Origin: a virus
Length of the DNA: 26,421 nucleotides
IMG/VR virus record: IMGVR_UViG_3300008470_000504
Coordinates: 1-26,421 of that record
Direction: 5' to 3' (one strand)
The notes under the pieces were generated by a model. That model was given only the letters and a program-made list of their open reading frames with translations. It was not told where the DNA came from and did no database searches. Shown piece by piece: positions 2,879-23,965 of this stretch. Position numbers and translations under genes: made by a program. Within the stretch, counting starts at the first letter, position 1. Every line of letters begins with the position of its first letter.

Positions 2879-2909
2879 TTTGTACTTTAAAAAGTAAAAC
2901 ATATATTTG
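2879..2909 (+). promoter_or_regulatory. Strong Bacteroidetes promoter for the recombination cassette
   Basis: TTTG at 2879-2882, a 19-bp spacer and TATATTTG at 2902-2909 give a perfect match to the TTTG-N19-TAnnTTTG consensus. It begins just after the terL stop and points into the 3010-7355 cassette. The predicted start is near 2913, giving a leader of about 97 nt. The spacer contains the palindrome TACTTT-AA-AAAGTA (2883-2896), a plausible operator that would block polymerase when bound. The XRE-type protein at 3461 is the obvious candidate ligand, by inference only. Confidence 0.75.
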
Positions 2910-2913
2910 CTTC

Positions 2914-2990
2914 AACTAATAAAGGTTAGTTAATTATCAAACAAAAAACGTTCTTACCTACCAACTTTTCAGCAGTTGGTAGGAATTTTA
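2914..2990 (+). promoter_or_regulatory. Structured 5' leader with two hairpins
   Basis: The leader can fold into AACTAA/TTAGTT (2914-2919 with 2926-2931) and a perfect 10-bp stem, CCTACCAACT/AGTTGGTAGG (2957-2966 with 2974-2983, 7-nt loop). The second stem is followed by AATTTTAAAA, a poor U tract, so it may be a weak terminator of terL readthrough, an attenuator, or an RNA-stabilising structure. Because the promoter at 2879-2909 lies upstream, the hairpin is in the cassette's own leader and could not simply end the previous unit. The rest of the 135-bp gap shows no ORF. Confidence 0.5.
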
Positions 2991-3009
2991 AAACTAAAAG
3001 GAAAAGTAA

Positions 3010-3504
3010 ATGGAAGAAATAATATCAAAGGAACACATGGAAGAACCAGTAATTAGGTTTGGTGACGGTCTAAATTTAGATAATTTATTTAGAGTTAAGG
3101 GCCGTCAGGGGCTTTATACTTTACGAAGTGGAGCTAGTAAGTCTGGCATGGTAGGCATGATGGAATTCCTAGACATGAACAACACTAAAACGGTTCACAA
3201 AAGAGATTTAGAATGTTTAGGTGAGTTAAGAATTTCAACATTTAATGATAGTAAAATTGAATTAATAACAATAAACGAAATTTTCAGCAATCTACACGAC
3301 CAAGAATCTGAACTTGTAAAGGTTGATTTAGATGCAAAACCTATTGAGGAATTAATGGAAATAATGGCCCCAAACTTTAGTTCAGATTTTAAACAGAGCC
3401 ACGCCAAAAGGGTTTATGCATGGTATAAATATATTATTGAAAAATTAAAAGCAGCTACAGATGAAGAAGATACTGGAAAAGATAAAACAGAAGATAAAGA
3501 GTAA
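3010..3504 (+). CDS. DUF5606-like protein
   Basis: This 164-aa soluble protein resembles DUF5606, a small protein family conserved in Bacteroidetes cells and of unknown function. Visible family-like features are VKGRQGLYTL at residues 29-38, the ECLGELRIST strand at 68-77, a following IxEIFSNL segment (88-95), an acidic middle, and RVYAWYKYIIEKL at 134-146. The C-terminal 18 residues are highly acidic and charged. The ATG follows AAGGAAAAG. It is the first gene after the cassette promoter, and its 3' end overlaps the XRE-type gene by 44 bp. I assign the family from remembered pattern, not from a search. The role in the phage is unknown. Confidence 0.55.
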   Translation: MEEIISKEHMEEPVIRFGDGLNLDNLFRVKGRQGLYTLRSGASKSGMVGMMEFLDMNNTKTVHKRDLECLGELRISTFNDSKIELITINEIFSNLHDQESELVKVDLDAKPIEELMEIMAPNFSSDFKQSHAKRVYAWYKYIIEKLKAATDEEDTGKDKTEDKE

Positions 3505-3823
3505 GAGTACTATGGAATCCTACGCTGAAAAAGTGGGGGTTCGTAGAGCTACTTTATCAGACTTCCTTCACCAAAAGGTAGATATTAGGGTTACGACCTT
3601 AAACAAAATAATTGAACCTTTGGGTTTAGATATAATGGAAAAGCTACCAGGTAAGCTAATTCATGTGGAAAGCGTTCATTATAAGGAGAAAAAGTATAAG
3701 GAAGGCGAAAAGTTTAGCAAAGGAAATAAGATTGTTTTTTGTTTTGGGTGTACAAAAACAACATATCAGGCTATTTTGTTAAAGAATACAGCAACAGAAG
3801 AATTAGAACTAAAAATATTATAA
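3461..3823 (+). CDS. XRE-type helix-turn-helix regulator
   Basis: Residues 3-58 of this 120-aa protein fit a five-helix XRE/Cro-like domain: a basic first helix (3-13), MESYAEKVGVRRATLSDFL as helix 2, turn and recognition helix, then a segment ending LGLDI. The C-terminal half (about 66-120) looks beta-rich and may bind a ligand or a partner. A later ATG at 3512 would avoid the 44-bp overlap with the previous gene but would remove helix 1, so I prefer 3461. It probably controls the cassette, perhaps through the palindrome at 2883-2896. That link is inferred from position alone. Confidence 0.7.
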   Translation: MKKILEKIKQKIKSKSTMESYAEKVGVRRATLSDFLHQKVDIRVTTLNKIIEPLGLDIMEKLPGKLIHVESVHYKEKKYKEGEKFSKGNKIVFCFGCTKTTYQAILLKNTATEELELKIL

Positions 3824-3826
3824 AAA

Positions 3827-5533
3827 ATGGGGCAGAAAGAAGTGAAGATAATAGGGTTAAAAGTTAACAATCAGCTTGGAATATTGCATAGTTGTGAGCT
3901 AGAATTTGACGTAAATAACAAGTTAATAGCTGTTTTGGGTGAGGTTGGTGCAGGGAAAACCACTTTACAAAAGAGTTTGATGCTAGGAACACAGGGTAGT
4001 GACGCATTAAAGAACGATAAACTGCTTTACGGTGATATAGACGAAGAAGTTCAGCTTTTGGACGGTGATACTAAATTGTTTGTAGGGTGCAAAACTAACA
4101 AGGATAAATCCCTTGAATATGTACTTTATACGAAGGACGAAGCTGGAAAGGTAATAAAAAACCCTGTGATTGATGGGGTTAAATCAACTCCAGCAAATTA
4201 TTTAAAGAATTTACAAACTTCTTTAACCTGGCGAATGGACGAGTTGACTAATGACAACCCGACAATTCAGCGAAAAATACTTTTAGATTTATACAAAGGT
4301 GATTTAATAGAGGCGGGTGTAGTTTTTGACAAAACCAGTGTTGAATACAGTAAAAGCATTTTAGGAAGAATTGAATTAGCTGAAAATGCAAGGTCTGAAA
4401 AAGAGTTTAAGCGAAAACAAGTTGGAGGGTTTTCTAACCAGTTGGAACCGTTGGGAATTATAGTTGATAAAACTGAAACACACCCAACGAGGCAAGATTT
4501 AAAGACATTAGAAGAAAAAGCTTCAAAACTGGGTTACGACATTAACAACGTAGAACAGGCGAAGACCCAAAAGCTTGAATCGTTAAAGAACCAGGCGGAT
4601 GGGGTTGTTTTAAAACTAAAGGACGAAAACAGAAAGATTCAAGAACATAATAGGTTATTAGAAAGTGATTTTGAAAAGAATAAAGCTACTTACAGCCAAA
4701 ACCAAAGGGTATTAGACGGGATTATTAGTGATTTAAATGTACTAAAAGAAGCGGGGTGTTATGCTCACGACGAATTTGTTGAAATAAATAATAAATTAGC
4801 TTCTGGATTCCTACTAAAAGAACCAATGTGTGAGCAGTTAAAAACTGAACTTGAATTTAGCGAAGAAGGAAAGCTAATTACCACCGAATGGAACGAAGAA
4901 GGTACGGTTCAAGGCTTGTTGTATGACTTGGTAGGTGTTCGTTCTAGTTATATAGCTAGAAGTACTGAACCACTTGACGACACTACGGTAATCCAAACGG
5001 AGCTTGAAAACATTAATAATGACATTGTATTAGCAAAGGAACATAATAAGAAATGTGATATGATGGATGCGTTTTTGGAATGGCAAGCAGAAAACAACGA
5101 AGTAATTGACCTAAGAAACCAATATGTCAACATGCTAAAGGGTGTCAATACTGGTGTTGATGGTTTAAATATTAATGTTGATAAACAAGATGCAAAGCTT
5201 GAAATATATTTGACTTATAATGGTCAGTACGATGTTGAATACTTTAACAACCCACAAAGGGAACATAGGAAGTTGAGCAGCTACAGCGGAACACAAAAAC
5301 CGTTAATTTGTTTGTTACTTCAAAATTATTTGTTAAGTAAAAAACCAAAAGCAATGCGATATTTATGGATTGATGATGTGCCAATTGACAATAAGACAAA
5401 AGCATTATTGACCAAGATGGGCCAAGAATTAAACCTAACAATATTTGTAAATATAACAGGTGATTTCAATAAAGATGTATTAAAGAATGGTGAAATACTT
5501 ATCCAAGGCGGTGAGGTGTTTTTTAAAAACTAA
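3827..5533 (+). CDS. Rad50/SMC-like ATPase
   Basis: The 568-aa protein has a split ABC-type ATPase around a helical middle. Walker A is GEVGAGKTT at residues 38-46. A charged coiled-coil arm spans roughly 225-310 and a second helical segment 385-440. The signature-like LSSYSGTQKP is at 483-492 and Walker B is RYLWIDDVP at 511-519. The usual catalytic Glu after the Walker B Asp is Asp (517), and the switch His after the last strand is not evident (FVNITGDF). I see no CxxC zinc hook. SMC-like ATPases of this kind act in end processing with a nuclease, as SbcC with SbcD or T4 gp46 with gp47. No gp47/SbcD-type nuclease gene is nearby; the YqaJ-type exonuclease at 6311 is the only nuclease candidate. 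Confidence 0.8.
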   Translation: MGQKEVKIIGLKVNNQLGILHSCELEFDVNNKLIAVLGEVGAGKTTLQKSLMLGTQGSDALKNDKLLYGDIDEEVQLLDGDTKLFVGCKTNKDKSLEYVLYTKDEAGKVIKNPVIDGVKSTPANYLKNLQTSLTWRMDELTNDNPTIQRKILLDLYKGDLIEAGVVFDKTSVEYSKSILGRIELAENARSEKEFKRKQVGGFSNQLEPLGIIVDKTETHPTRQDLKTLEEKASKLGYDINNVEQAKTQKLESLKNQADGVVLKLKDENRKIQEHNRLLESDFEKNKATYSQNQRVLDGIISDLNVLKEAGCYAHDEFVEINNKLASGFLLKEPMCEQLKTELEFSEEGKLITTEWNEEGTVQGLLYDLVGVRSSYIARSTEPLDDTTVIQTELENINNDIVLAKEHNKKCDMMDAFLEWQAENNEVIDLRNQYVNMLKGVNTGVDGLNINVDKQDAKLEIYLTYNGQYDVEYFNNPQREHRKLSSYSGTQKPLICLLLQNYLLSKKPKAMRYLWIDDVPIDNKTKALLTKMGQELNLTIFVNITGDFNKDVLKNGEILIQGGEVFFKN

Positions 5534-5539
5534 ATAAAG

Positions 5540-5809
5540 ATGGAGTATTTAAAATTATTAGGTTATTTGTTGTTATTGGTTATTATTTTTATATGGGTAG
5601 GTAGTCCAGAAATAAACTTCAAACCATTTTCTTTTAGACTTGTTTCGTGGAGGATTTCAATGTTTTGGGTTTTCTTAATGATTTCCCTGTTCTTTTACGC
5701 CTCTGAATATAAAAGAATAGGAAAGAAAAAAGGATGGAAAGCAGGGGCTGATTTCGCTATAAGTATTTTTGAAGAAAAATTAGAAGAAAAAAGAAATTCA
5801 AACAAATAA
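5540..5809 (+). CDS. Small two-helix membrane protein
   Basis: The 89-aa product has two hydrophobic segments, about residues 5-21 and 38-54, joined by a short loop. A lysine-rich, probably cytoplasmic tail (55-89) includes the basic KRIGKKKGWKAG stretch and an acidic helix. It follows the ATPase gene by 6 bp and precedes the annealing protein by 2 bp, so it is co-transcribed with recombination genes. A holin role seems unlikely, because a better lysis cassette lies at 9288-10344. I do not recognise the family; membrane anchoring of the recombination complex, or superinfection exclusion, is only a guess. Confidence 0.65.
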   Translation: MEYLKLLGYLLLLVIIFIWVGSPEINFKPFSFRLVSWRISMFWVFLMISLFFYASEYKRIGKKKGWKAGADFAISIFEEKLEEKRNSNK

Positions 5810-5811
5810 AG

Positions 5812-6318
5812 ATGGAAGGAAAATTAGAAGAATACAGGTTTAAAGATTTATTAGCTTTTAAGGAGGCATTGAAAAAAGCACCTGCACCAGCATGGACAGA
5901 GCAAAGAAATATCGGTTCAAGAAGCGTTCCTTATATTGGGATTGCTGTAAAAGAAGCTTTAGCTGATACAATGTTTAAAGAATGGAACGTTGTAGAAGAA
6001 AAATACATGAATGTCTTAAATGAAATTGTTTGTACTGTTAAAATAAACGCTTTGCCTGATTATGTTGGTGCTGATTACATAACTTTTACAGGTAGTGCAT
6101 CAAAACCAATACAGGTAGACGCTAAATCAATCGCATCCGAGTTCCCAAAAGGTAAAAAGGCCAACGCTCTAGAATATTGTTTGCCAGCCGTTAGAAGTGA
6201 ATCTATTGGAAACGCTTTTGAAACTTTAGGCAATATATTTGGCAGAAATTTGGCCCGTAATGCTTCGAATGATTTTGGTTTCGATTTGGCTTATGTAACA
6301 GCTACGAAAGGTGAATGA
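5812..6318 (+). CDS. Rad52/Sak-like single-strand annealing protein
   Basis: This 168-aa protein matches the layout of phage Rad52-like annealing proteins. A VPYI segment (39-42) is followed by a helix and a Trp (EWNV, 57-60). Strands IVCTVKI (72-78) and ADYITFTGSAS (87-97) come next. The C-terminal helix pair LPAVRSESIGNAFETLGNIFGRNL (124-147) corresponds to the 'A..SdA.kra...LG..FG' element of that fold. Such proteins coat single-stranded DNA and anneal it to complementary strands. The YqaJ-type exonuclease gene overlaps its 3' end by 8 bp, which is the usual pairing of annealase and exonuclease. The fold call is from pattern and context; an unrelated conserved phage protein remains possible. 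Confidence 0.6.
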   Translation: MEGKLEEYRFKDLLAFKEALKKAPAPAWTEQRNIGSRSVPYIGIAVKEALADTMFKEWNVVEEKYMNVLNEIVCTVKINALPDYVGADYITFTGSASKPIQVDAKSIASEFPKGKKANALEYCLPAVRSESIGNAFETLGNIFGRNLARNASNDFGFDLAYVTATKGE

Positions 6319-7084
6319 ATTTGAAGAAATATCATCAAGTTTTAAAATGGTTGGAACTGTCAGCTCTAAAACAGAGTCTGACAGTTTACAACGAAATGAA
6401 GCTTGGTTGCAAAAGCGAAGCGGCTGTTTTACTGGCAGCAAATTATCGCTTTTGATGGGTTGCGGAAAAGCAACTTCAAAAATCCCGTGGGGTGACACCG
6501 CAAAACTTTTTGATTTTAGTGTAACGGCTGAAAAGTACATTTATAACGTAGGAAAAGAAAGGCTAACAGGTTTAAGGTCACAACAACAAAGTAGTAAGCA
6601 AATGCAGCACGGAACAGACCATGATCCGCTACTAATTCAACAATTATTAGATGATGGTGTAATAACTGACTTTGAAGAATTAGGTTTTGAATACTTTGGC
6701 GACTACCATAACGGTGGAGCCTCGGCAGATGGTAGGGCTATATATAAAGGCGTTTTAGTTGGTTGCGAAATAAAGTGTTGCGTTAGTTGGGATGGTCACT
6801 ACAAACGAATGTATGAAGCCGTACACGATAAGCATGACGACTTCTGGCAACACCAGGGTGAAATGTTAGCAATGGGAGTTGATTCTTTGCTTTATGTTGT
6901 AGCAATGCCAATGCAGGTAGAAAAATATGACACTCAAATAGTAGCGGCATCGGTAACACACCAAGAAGCCTTGATGCATAGGTGTAGAATTGCTGACATG
7001 GCAATAAAATTGTGGAGTAAATACACTTACAAAGAAGCTCTTCAAATAGCTTGTAATAACTACAAAGAACTTATTAATAATTAA
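6311..7084 (+). CDS. YqaJ-type viral recombination exonuclease
   Basis: The 257-aa product has the motif order of YqaJ/lambda-exonuclease-like PD-(D/E)XK nucleases. These are NEAWLQKRSGCFTGS (29-43), QHGTDHDPLLIQ (99-110), the catalytic SADG (138-141, Asp140), GCEIKCC (151-157, Glu153 and Lys155), and the downstream WQHQGEML (179-186). The enzyme should degrade one strand of duplex DNA from ends and hand the single strand to the annealing protein upstream. The GTG start at 6311 overlaps the previous gene by 8 bp. An in-frame ATG at 6347 would shorten the protein by 12 residues without touching the domain. Confidence 0.85.
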   Translation: MNEFEEISSSFKMVGTVSSKTESDSLQRNEAWLQKRSGCFTGSKLSLLMGCGKATSKIPWGDTAKLFDFSVTAEKYIYNVGKERLTGLRSQQQSSKQMQHGTDHDPLLIQQLLDDGVITDFEELGFEYFGDYHNGGASADGRAIYKGVLVGCEIKCCVSWDGHYKRMYEAVHDKHDDFWQHQGEMLAMGVDSLLYVVAMPMQVEKYDTQIVAASVTHQEALMHRCRIADMAIKLWSKYTYKEALQIACNNYKELINN

Positions 7085-7097
7085 ACAAATAAAAAAA

Positions 7098-7355
7098 ATG
7101 GACAAGGTAAACGAATTATCAGAAGAATTATTTAAAGAGGTAGAAAATAGGTTTATGCATCAGTACTCTAAAAACCACTGGCCCGCAAAATTAAGAAAAG
7201 TGATGAACACTAAAATGGAAGCGGCTTTTCATTATGGTCAAATTTCTTTAGATGGAAAAATAAACGCATTAAATTCAAGCTTACAAAAAGCATTGAGCCG
7301 ACCTCAACCAACTTTGGGCCATAGATTAAAATATTTATTTACAGGCAAATTATAA
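7098..7355 (+). CDS. Small hypothetical protein, last gene of the cassette
   Basis: This 85-aa protein has no signal peptide or membrane segment. It is mostly helical in composition and basic, with a heptad-like N-terminus (LSEELFKEVENRF), several aromatic residues (HQYSKNHW), and a basic C-terminus. It lies 13 bp after the exonuclease and 8 bp before the terminator at 7363. I do not recognise it. Its position suggests an accessory recombination or nucleic-acid-binding role, but nothing in the sequence proves that. Confidence 0.6.
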   Translation: MDKVNELSEELFKEVENRFMHQYSKNHWPAKLRKVMNTKMEAAFHYGQISLDGKINALNSSLQKALSRPQPTLGHRLKYLFTGKL

Positions 7356-7362
7356 ACAAATT

Positions 7363-7393
7363 AAAAGGAGCTAAGTTTTAGTTCCTTTTTTTT
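7363..7393 (+). terminator. Rho-independent terminator closing the cassette
   Basis: AAAAGGAGCTAA (7363-7374) pairs with TTAGTTCCTTTT (7378-7389), giving a 12-bp stem with one G-U pair, a 3-nt loop and a run of T to 7393. The T run leads into the next promoter element, so termination and re-initiation are back to back. Confidence 0.85.
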
Positions 7394-7395
7394 AT

Positions 7396-7403
7396 TAAAT
7401 TTG
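7396..7403 (+). promoter_or_regulatory. Promoter -7 element for gpW-like and portal genes
   Basis: TAAATTTG matches TAnnTTTG and sits in a 13-mer (7391-7403) identical to 83-95 upstream of the terminase genes. No good -33 TTTG is seen at the expected distance, where the terminator stem lies. The next ATG is at 7408, so the transcript would be leaderless or nearly so. Confidence 0.5.
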
Positions 7404-7407
7404 TAGC

Positions 7408-7713
7408 ATGGTTGTATATAGTTCAGCATCTAAATATTTGGAATCAGCGACACAGGCTTGCGATAAGATAGCGAAAATAGACGCTATTATATCGGCTTTA
7501 GAAGATACAGCCCTAAAGGGTGCAGCAAACGACCACATTGAAGAATATTGGTTGGATGACGGCCAATCTAAAATCAAAACAACTTACAAAGGTGTTGACG
7601 AAATTTTTAAATCAATTAATTCTTTTTTAAAACTGAAGGAATATTGGGTTAATAAATTAAACGGCCGAGCATTTAGAATGGTTGGAAGCAAACAATTAAG
7701 AAGAGGATATTAA
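7408..7713 (+). CDS. gpW-like head-tail joining protein
   Basis: A 101-aa, mostly helical protein directly before the portal gene, the slot that gpW occupies in lambda (A-W-B). The second half carries DDGQSKIKTTYKGVDEI (residues 50-66), then a helical region and KLNGRAF (73-79). This resembles the 'DGq.k..y.s.....I..le.....lngr' pattern of gpW-type adaptors, which plug the portal after packaging. The start lies only 4 bp beyond the promoter element. The family call rests mainly on gene order, size and this pattern. Confidence 0.5.
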   Translation: MVVYSSASKYLESATQACDKIAKIDAIISALEDTALKGAANDHIEEYWLDDGQSKIKTTYKGVDEIFKSINSFLKLKEYWVNKLNGRAFRMVGSKQLRRGY

Positions 7714-22775: not shown

Positions 22776-23965
22776 ATGGCTGTTAATATACCAACATTTA
22801 AACAATTATATGATGATATTATAGCTGATTTAGAGGCTGAATTAAATATAACGATACCTATATTTGGAAAGTCTTTCTTGAGGGCTTTCGCAGTAGTACA
22901 GGCATCTAAACAAAAGCTTTATTATTTAAGTATAGCAAATTTACAGAAGAATATATTCGTAGACACCGCAGAGCCTGAAGCTTTGGGTGGTACTTTGGAA
23001 CGTTACGGAAGAATAAAATTAGGTAGAAGCCCTTATAAATCAACCCCAGGAAGTTATCAAGTTTCTGTAACTGGTGATATCGGTGCTGTTATACCTGTTA
23101 ATACAACTTTTAAAAGTAGTGACACTTCTACAAACCCTGGTAAACTATATGTTCTTGATGCTGAATATACATTTGTTGCAGGTGTTAACCTAATAATTGT
23201 AAGAGCTTTAGAAGGTGGGCTTGATAGCCAATTGTCAATCGGTGACATTGTTACAAGTACTTCACCTATTGCTAATGCAGAATCTAAGGGCGCAATAACA
23301 AACGAAACAATTGAGCCATTAGCTGCCGAAACTGTAGAAGAATACAGGGCCAAAGCAATACAGGCATATCAATTAGAACCACAAGGCGGAGCGGCTGCCG
23401 ATTATATTTATGGGCTGAAGATGCTCAAGGTTTAAAAAGGGTTTATCCTTATACTAAATCTGGATTTTCCAACGAAATACAAATATTTATTGAAGCTACT
23501 GTAGCCGATTCTATTGACGGAAAAGGCACTCCGTCAGCTGCATTAATTCAAGAAGTTGATGACGTAACAGAGTTTGACCCAGATAATACCAAACCTATAA
23601 GCGAAAGAGGTAGAAGGCCAATTGGAGTATTTAATATTGATTTTTTACCTATAATATTAAAAACTGTTGATGTTGAAATTATTAATTATGCTAATTTAAC
23701 GCCAACTATAGAATCGTCTATCAGTAATTCTATAACCAGTTTTGTTGACACTGTTAGGCCCTTTGTTGACAACGCTGATGTACTTGCTGACAAAAACGAT
23801 ATTTTAAGTATTAATAATTTAATATCAGTAATATTAAAGGCAGTACCAGGCGGAGTATTTGAACAAGTTATTCTTCGTATAGACGGGGTTGAATTACCTA
23901 CATTTTCATTTCAATTTGGGGATATATCAACAGTTGACTCAATAACTTTTTCTACAAATGTTTAG
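22776..23965 (+). pseudogene. Baseplate J (Mu gp47-like) gene with a frameshift
   Basis: The N-terminal 219 codons encode a gp47/baseplate J-like wedge protein up to AADYIYGLKMLKV and TAA at 23433. One frame back, from about 23408, the sequence continues as LWAEDAQGLKRVYPYT and runs without stop to 23963, ending VPGGVFEQVILRIDGVELPTFSFQFGDIS. The family usually reads ADYI-x-W-A-x-D-x-x-G-V/L at this point, so one T appears to be missing near 23406-23409. Joined, the product is about 396 aa. No good slippery heptamer is present, so a real deletion or a sequencing error is likelier than programmed shifting. The stop overlaps the next gene by 8 bp. Confidence 0.8.

Follow-up and report, generated by a model that had tools for sequence, protein, structure and literature searches.

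A recombination module probably relocated to the junction between terL and the head operon in a clade of Bacteroidota myoviruses

Single-strand annealing proteins (SSAPs) of phages include the Rad52/Erf/Sak and Red-beta/RecT families, which have been reviewed (PMC8093625). In the SSAP-exonuclease modules, the annealing protein is encoded next to a nuclease of the lambda-exo/YqaJ type, the two forming a resect-and-anneal pair. A pair of this kind, consisting of a RAD52-fold annealer and a nuclease homologous to lambda exo, occurs in a seven-gene cassette on a virus sequence of 26,421 nucleotides from IMG/VR (record IMGVR_UViG_3300008470_000504), the whole of which is here called the window. Unlike the described modules, the pair in this clade sits between the large terminase gene terL and the head operon; in the window it travels with an ATPase of the SMC/RecF type and a helix-turn-helix (HTH) gene, and its annealer belongs only to phrog_15333. 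The Cellulophaga phage phi38:2/phiSM group (KC821629) has a homologous SSAP (gp41, 43% by tblastn) and exonuclease (gp40, 34%), and shares the order of terL, gpW-position gene and portal as well as the myovirus tail genes. In phi38:2, however, the pair is on the minus strand beside a helicase and without the ATPase, and only 146 bp separate terL from the gpW-position gene. No description of recombination genes between terL and portal was found in the literature, in which coverage of subscription papers was incomplete.

We hypothesise, with a probability of about 0.78, that a complete recombination module was relocated in the ancestor of this clade from the replication region to a slot between the terS-terL unit and the head operon. 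This proposal is built on the families and folds of the proteins, the conserved slot, the empty sites in relatives, the homologues elsewhere, two moves that we infer, and the similarity of promoters.

The window encodes terS, a GpA-type terL, portal, protease, major capsid, tail sheath, tape measure and baseplate proteins. Its end lies within the structural region, and the replication module is therefore outside the sequenced stretch. A preliminary description of this DNA, made from the sequence alone, had compared the phage with those of lambda type; the tail sheath gene instead marks it as a myovirus, with a contractile tail that is not lambda-like. Since its relatives are Cellulophaga and Flavobacterium phages and Pedobacter, Allomuricauda and Bacteroidetes contigs, the host is expected to be a member of the Bacteroidota. 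The seven-gene unit noted in that description is real. Seven open reading frames (ORFs) on the same strand (3010-7355) lie between terL (850-2874; Pfam GpA_ATPase 1.5e-57, GpA_nuclease 1.1e-44) and the next head gene (7408-7713; phrog_5196 2.4e-18, a family without assigned function). All features given here between 850 and 7713 are on the plus strand. The head gene had been called gpW-like, but Pfam and PDB profile searches gave no match to gpW, and the name as used here is a label by position only.

The 168-residue product of 5812-6318 is a predicted RAD52-superfamily annealing protein by fold. Its AlphaFold model (predicted local distance difference test, pLDDT, 77.8) has the RAD52-type β-β-β-α fold, and the 14 top PDB matches found by Foldseek are all human RAD52 (best E 1.8e-7, probability 1.00, template modelling score 0.52-0.56). 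Neither Pfam nor NCBIfam matched it to a named SSAP family (Rad52/22, Erf, Sak3, RecT); phrog_15333 (4.7e-38) has no assigned function. The adjoining 257-residue protein (6311-7084) is a predicted nuclease of the lambda-exo/YqaJ type with the D...ExK residues. It matches phrog_149 (4.5e-21) and the PDB profiles of LHK-exo (3syy, 1.2e-12) and lambda exo (1avq, 4.5e-4), and D140 and E153-x-K155 are invariant in 9 aligned sequences. The Pfam YqaJ model matches the homologue in genome G007 (1.3e-12) but not the window protein. The preliminary description had named both proteins correctly, as a Rad52-like annealer and a YqaJ-type exonuclease.

The ATPase (3827-5533, 568 residues) was recognised from its AlphaFold2 model (pLDDT 87.6), for which Foldseek returned an SMC head (3.3e-12), Rad50 (9e-9) and RecF (9e-6). 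Like the SbcC/Rad50, SMC and RecF ATPases it has an ABC-type head, a coiled coil, Walker A (residues 38-45, GEVGAGKT), a signature-like SGTQK motif and Walker B (LWIDD), so that all the elements of a Rad50/SbcC-type head are present. It differs from them in that the coil is short, no CxxC zinc hook is seen in its sequence, and there is no Mre11-type partner, none of the seven cassette proteins having matched the Mre11/SbcD family in Pfam, phrog and NCBIfam-type scans. Walker B ends in ID-D/N-V rather than the usual D-E, leaving D or N at the position of the usual catalytic glutamate. For these reasons the likeness to Rad50, which had been put forward earlier, holds for the head fold and does not extend to membership of that family. 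The ATPase seems to be accessory, since it was not found in phi38:2, of whose 54 kb the first 50 were searched with a hidden Markov model (HMM), or in those parts of G026 that were searched. An alignment of the ATPase run against 84,980 species genomes gave no homologue at the sensitivity used.

For the survey of the junction, viral contigs were scanned with terL, the ATPase, the SSAP, the exonuclease and the first cassette protein (g3), and all loci were then searched with HMMs; the loci of the relatives are metagenomic contigs whose ends are unconfirmed. The block can be followed on both sides, from terL to the gpW-position gene, in the window, G001, L007, L010, L013, L015, L115 and L116 (in the last of which terL is partial), and from one side in L002, L012, L030, L033, L054, L006, L008, L009 and L148. 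At least 16 contigs besides the window thus hold the cassette, whole or partial, at the same site, and it is therefore not a recent insert; the block is retained among carriers whose terL identity falls to 55-65%. Nor does it appear to be inherited from the ancestor of the whole group, because in distant relatives the junction is near-empty and the homologous genes lie beside a replication helicase. In phi38:2, G007, G016, G023, G024, G025, G026, L049, L055 and the Pedobacter loci, terL and the next gene are 4-275 bp apart with no cassette between them, and a terL-based scan of genomes returned cassette-free Pedobacter and Allomuricauda loci. Other sequences occupy the junction elsewhere: ParB and PAPS reductase genes in phage FCV-1, about 8 kb in Flavobacterium phage FL-1, and different sequence again in G019, L069, L089 and L091.

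Further arrangements were seen around this junction. In L189 (4268-7626), terL is on the opposite strand to the gpW-portal-protease-capsid genes, and the strand switch falls at the junction. Elsewhere among the terL relatives, terL is followed by genes of the glycosyltransferase type or by the tail sheath, and L034-L044 have arrays of glycosyltransferase and sugar-modification genes immediately downstream of it. FL-1 (L114) also carries replication-type genes between portal and head protease, a second large insert in its structural region.

Homologues of the SSAP, exonuclease and/or ATPase are found in a replication-type region, mostly near a COG1061-type helicase, in phi38:2, G007, G023, G024, G025 and G026. 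The order is helicase-exonuclease-SSAP in phi38:2, all on the minus strand, SSAP-exonuclease-ATPase-helicase in G023, G024, L119, L123, L131 and others, and helicase-ATPase-exonuclease in G007. This is what the preliminary description had predicted, namely that relatives without the cassette would show terL adjoining the gpW-position gene and would carry homologous cassettes elsewhere. In G001 (46 kb) the cassette is in the slot, and the replication module has a primase and a helicase, without SSAP, exonuclease or ATPase. In G019 (45 kb) the genes are in the same order as in the window (HTH-ATPase-x-SSAP-exonuclease) and lie between primase and helicase, with unrelated small genes in the slot; identities to the window proteins are 48% for the HTH protein (over 88 residues), 51% for the ATPase, 64% for the SSAP and 53% for the exonuclease. 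On the basis of G001, with its slot copy only, and G019, which falls inside the clade and has the block in its replication module, the block moved in and probably also out.

The ATPase and terL trees agree with this. In the ATPase tree the early copies are basal, the slot copies are nested among them, and G019 lies inside the slot copies (99/98); a topology in which the slot copies are monophyletic without G019 is rejected (approximately unbiased test, p 0.00016). In the terL tree G019 falls within the cassette clade, and the cassette-free phages are outside it. The trees are midpoint-rooted, and the direction of movement therefore also leans on the state of the site in the outgroups. The simplest reading is of one move from early region to slot in the ancestor of the clade, followed by a move from slot to early region in the lineage of G019. 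The block has thus probably left the slot at least once.

Immediately after terL there is a match to a promoter of the Bacteroidota sigma-A type (TTTG-N19-TATATTTG, 2879-2909), at the place where the preliminary description saw a perfect promoter. The pattern alone is at chance level in the window (2 matches against 1.27 expected), and the match is significant only because of its position in relatives, TAnnTTTG occurring just after terL in 9 of 12 slot loci against 1.4 in shuffles. Within the promoter is a dyad, TACTTTAAAAAGTA (2883-2896; TAC-N8-GTA), which is a candidate operator. It too is shared after terL by 9 of the 12 loci, against 0.5 in shuffles (maximum 3). A stricter form of the dyad was found 11 times in HTH-bearing genomes, against 0.53 expected, and twice in HTH-less genomes, against 1.2 expected; one of the 11 (L002) is inside terL and is probably there by chance. 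The five dyad sites of G019 are at or near the upstream ends of minus-strand replication-module or accessory genes, including the recombination block. The cassette promoter of G001 is a 66-bp copy, 87.9% identical (E 3e-10), of the minus-strand promoter of an early-type operon at 37.3 kb, which precedes FolE/QueD genes. The window promoter has the dyad, with no long copy elsewhere in the available 26 kb. The cassette itself encodes a 120-residue HTH protein of the Cro/Xre type (3461-3823; phrog_3557 1.9e-6; HTH_3 1.5e-4, just under the cut-off), which is a candidate regulator of the dyad promoters.

G019 (L161) also has two near-identical 50-bp repeats bearing the dyad, at 3392 and 6137, each ahead of a small minus-strand gene set. 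They lie in the structural region, one after terL and the other between portal and protease. Genes of the FolE-QueD-QueE type for 7-deazaguanine are present in the replication modules of G001 (31.8-44.4 kb; L021, L022) and phi38:2 (36-45 kb; L016). A scan for sigma-70 promoters was dropped, as its matches were at background level and that promoter type is wrong for these hosts.

At the other end of the cassette, the head operon appears to have a promoter of its own. According to mapping in flavobacteria, the sigma-A box TAnnTTTG lies at -12 to -5, and only 5.5% of mRNAs are leaderless (PMC9723704). In the window a -7 element, TAAATTTG (7396-7403), is 12 nt before the ATG of the gene at 7408, which predicts a leaderless start. 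The same 12-nt spacing from the gpW-position ATG recurs in the majority of the slot phages examined (L013 and L010 have 13-14 nt, and L148 has no box), in the cassette-free phi38:2, G007 and L055, and in L069; as background, a box whose end is 2-8 nt ahead of the ATG is present at 17 of 364 ORFs. The head operon thus probably has its own, leaderless start. Because this promoter is conserved with and without the cassette, the junction would appear to be a boundary between units that predates the cassette, and inserts in the slot break no operon. The earlier placing of the cassette inside a packaging operon is therefore not retained. As judged from sequence, the cassette is an independent unit, with its own conserved promoter and a neighbouring operon that restarts itself even where the slot is empty.

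On these grounds, the module would have kept or gained an early-type promoter with the TAC-N8-GTA dyad, the dyad being a likely binding site for a regulator, perhaps the HTH protein of the cassette. An early-type promoter with this dyad leads us to expect expression together with the replication genes, despite the late address. By analogy with their families, the exonuclease would resect DNA ends, the RAD52-fold protein would coat and anneal single strands, and the ATPase may act as a DNA clamp or a regulator of ends; jointly they may support recombination-dependent replication, repair and concatemer formation. The early timing, the regulator and these biochemical roles are the parts of the proposal that we infer. 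RAD52-like phage recombinases recombine short and diverged homologies and shape mosaicism (PMC3945230), and so one may speculate that duplicated early promoters provided the homology for relocation. A bolder version is possible but rather doubtful. In it, ATPase, annealer and exonuclease would make up a new three-part machine for recombination, equipped with an operator and an HTH regulator of its own, and the block would shuttle between replication module and slot by recombination at duplicated early promoters, the phage using its recombinase to move that same recombinase.

Several observations weigh against relocation as proposed here. The replication module has been sequenced in one slot phage only (G001), the window stopping at 26 kb. 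The exonuclease tree, which has weak branches, is compatible with a single move and does not require a second, and in the poorly resolved SSAP tree the slot copies fall in two groups. The label "early" derives from the neighbours in the replication module, and in G001 a weaker copy of the cassette promoter is also found upstream of the terS-terL unit; for this latter reason the promoter class is perhaps early-to-middle and not strictly early. It might be argued that the cassette is an ancestral part of the normal late or packaging region of the clade, that nothing was relocated and that lambda is the wrong comparison. Every close relative except G019 does have the genes at this site. However, in outgroups whose terL is related the site is vacant or holds something else, and the homologues lie in the replication module; the slot state is nested in the ATPase and terL trees, and there are separate promoters on both sides, all of which makes an ancestral position improbable. 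The preliminary description had counted it against an inserted unit if all close relatives carried the genes at this site with shared late transcription. The site is shared, G019 excepted, but shared late transcription looks wrong, because the promoters ahead of the cassette resemble early-operon ones and the head operon has a separate promoter from which to restart; this is judged from promoter sequences.

In temperate phages, morons and inter-operon cargo sites have an independent promoter and variable content between otherwise syntenic genes. The unit in the window resembles them in both respects, and could be recent foreign cargo unrelated to the phage's own recombination genes; its terminator and the inserts at the same junction in FCV-1 and FL-1 would fit. 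It differs from a moron in that its content is a core function in replication/recombination, which takes the place of the usual early copy and has been retained across a deep clade. Recent cargo is very improbable, given a block old enough to be kept at the terL divergence noted above, which in G001 stands in for the missing early copy and has its homologue in the early module of sister phages. Of the cargo-like unit proposed earlier, the independence and the relocation stand; since all close relatives but G019 carry the genes at the site, the relocation is old and at the level of the clade. The Foldseek matches of the ATPase include the Lamassu, JetABC, AriA and retron Ec83 ATPases, and slots often contain defence-type genes, which could suggest a defence or anti-defence unit (Lamassu-, Wadjet- or PARIS-like) around an SMC-like ATPase and a nuclease. 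PADLOC gave marginal matches only (best 8e-4 over 33 residues), the partners are a RAD52-fold annealer and a YqaJ/lambda-exo nuclease, and the trio stands beside replication helicase and primase genes in many other phages; we regard a defence role as extremely unlikely.

The remaining features of the cassette are small. The first gene, g3 (3010-3504, 164 residues), was seen in one fragment (L197) and otherwise only in cassettes located in the slot, and the last, g9 (7098-7355, 85 residues), only in slot-located cassettes, with a conserved C-terminus, R-x-K/R-F-L-F-T-G-K-L. Between the ATPase and SSAP genes, an ORF for a predicted membrane protein of 89 residues (5540-5809) differs between relatives and has no family match in Pfam and phrog scans. 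Upstream of the first gene is a leader hairpin, CCTACCAAC-N9-GTTGGTAGG (2957-2983; RNA fold of 2910-3015, z -2.1), which is not obviously conserved and is a possible attenuator or stability element. The intrinsic terminator after the cassette (7363-7393; 12-bp stem, 3-nt loop and T-run) is as strong in the window as was first described (fold of 7340-7410, z -4.0). It is not general, however: among 15 loci it is absent or weak in most slot phages, and a strong terminator is present in the cassette-free phi38:2 and G023. Outside the cassette, the baseplate J gene is split (22776-23960): a 219-residue ORF stops at 23435, the relatives having about 390 residues, and the remainder, which has no start, runs on in a different frame as far as about 23960, reflecting a frameshift in the contig or a genuinely broken gene.

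The locus would thus record a two-way movement of a core replication function over the divide between early and late regions, one that can be placed on a tree and for which relatives with empty, donor and recipient sites are available. The junction between terL and the head operon would be a pre-existing transcriptional boundary that accepts whole modules: recombination genes here, ParB and PAPS reductase in FCV-1, and others elsewhere. TAC-N8-GTA is a testable candidate operator of an early-type regulon in phages whose hosts belong to a little-studied bacterial phylum. Finally, annotators of phage genomes often infer the timing of expression from position, and in this clade position is probably misleading.

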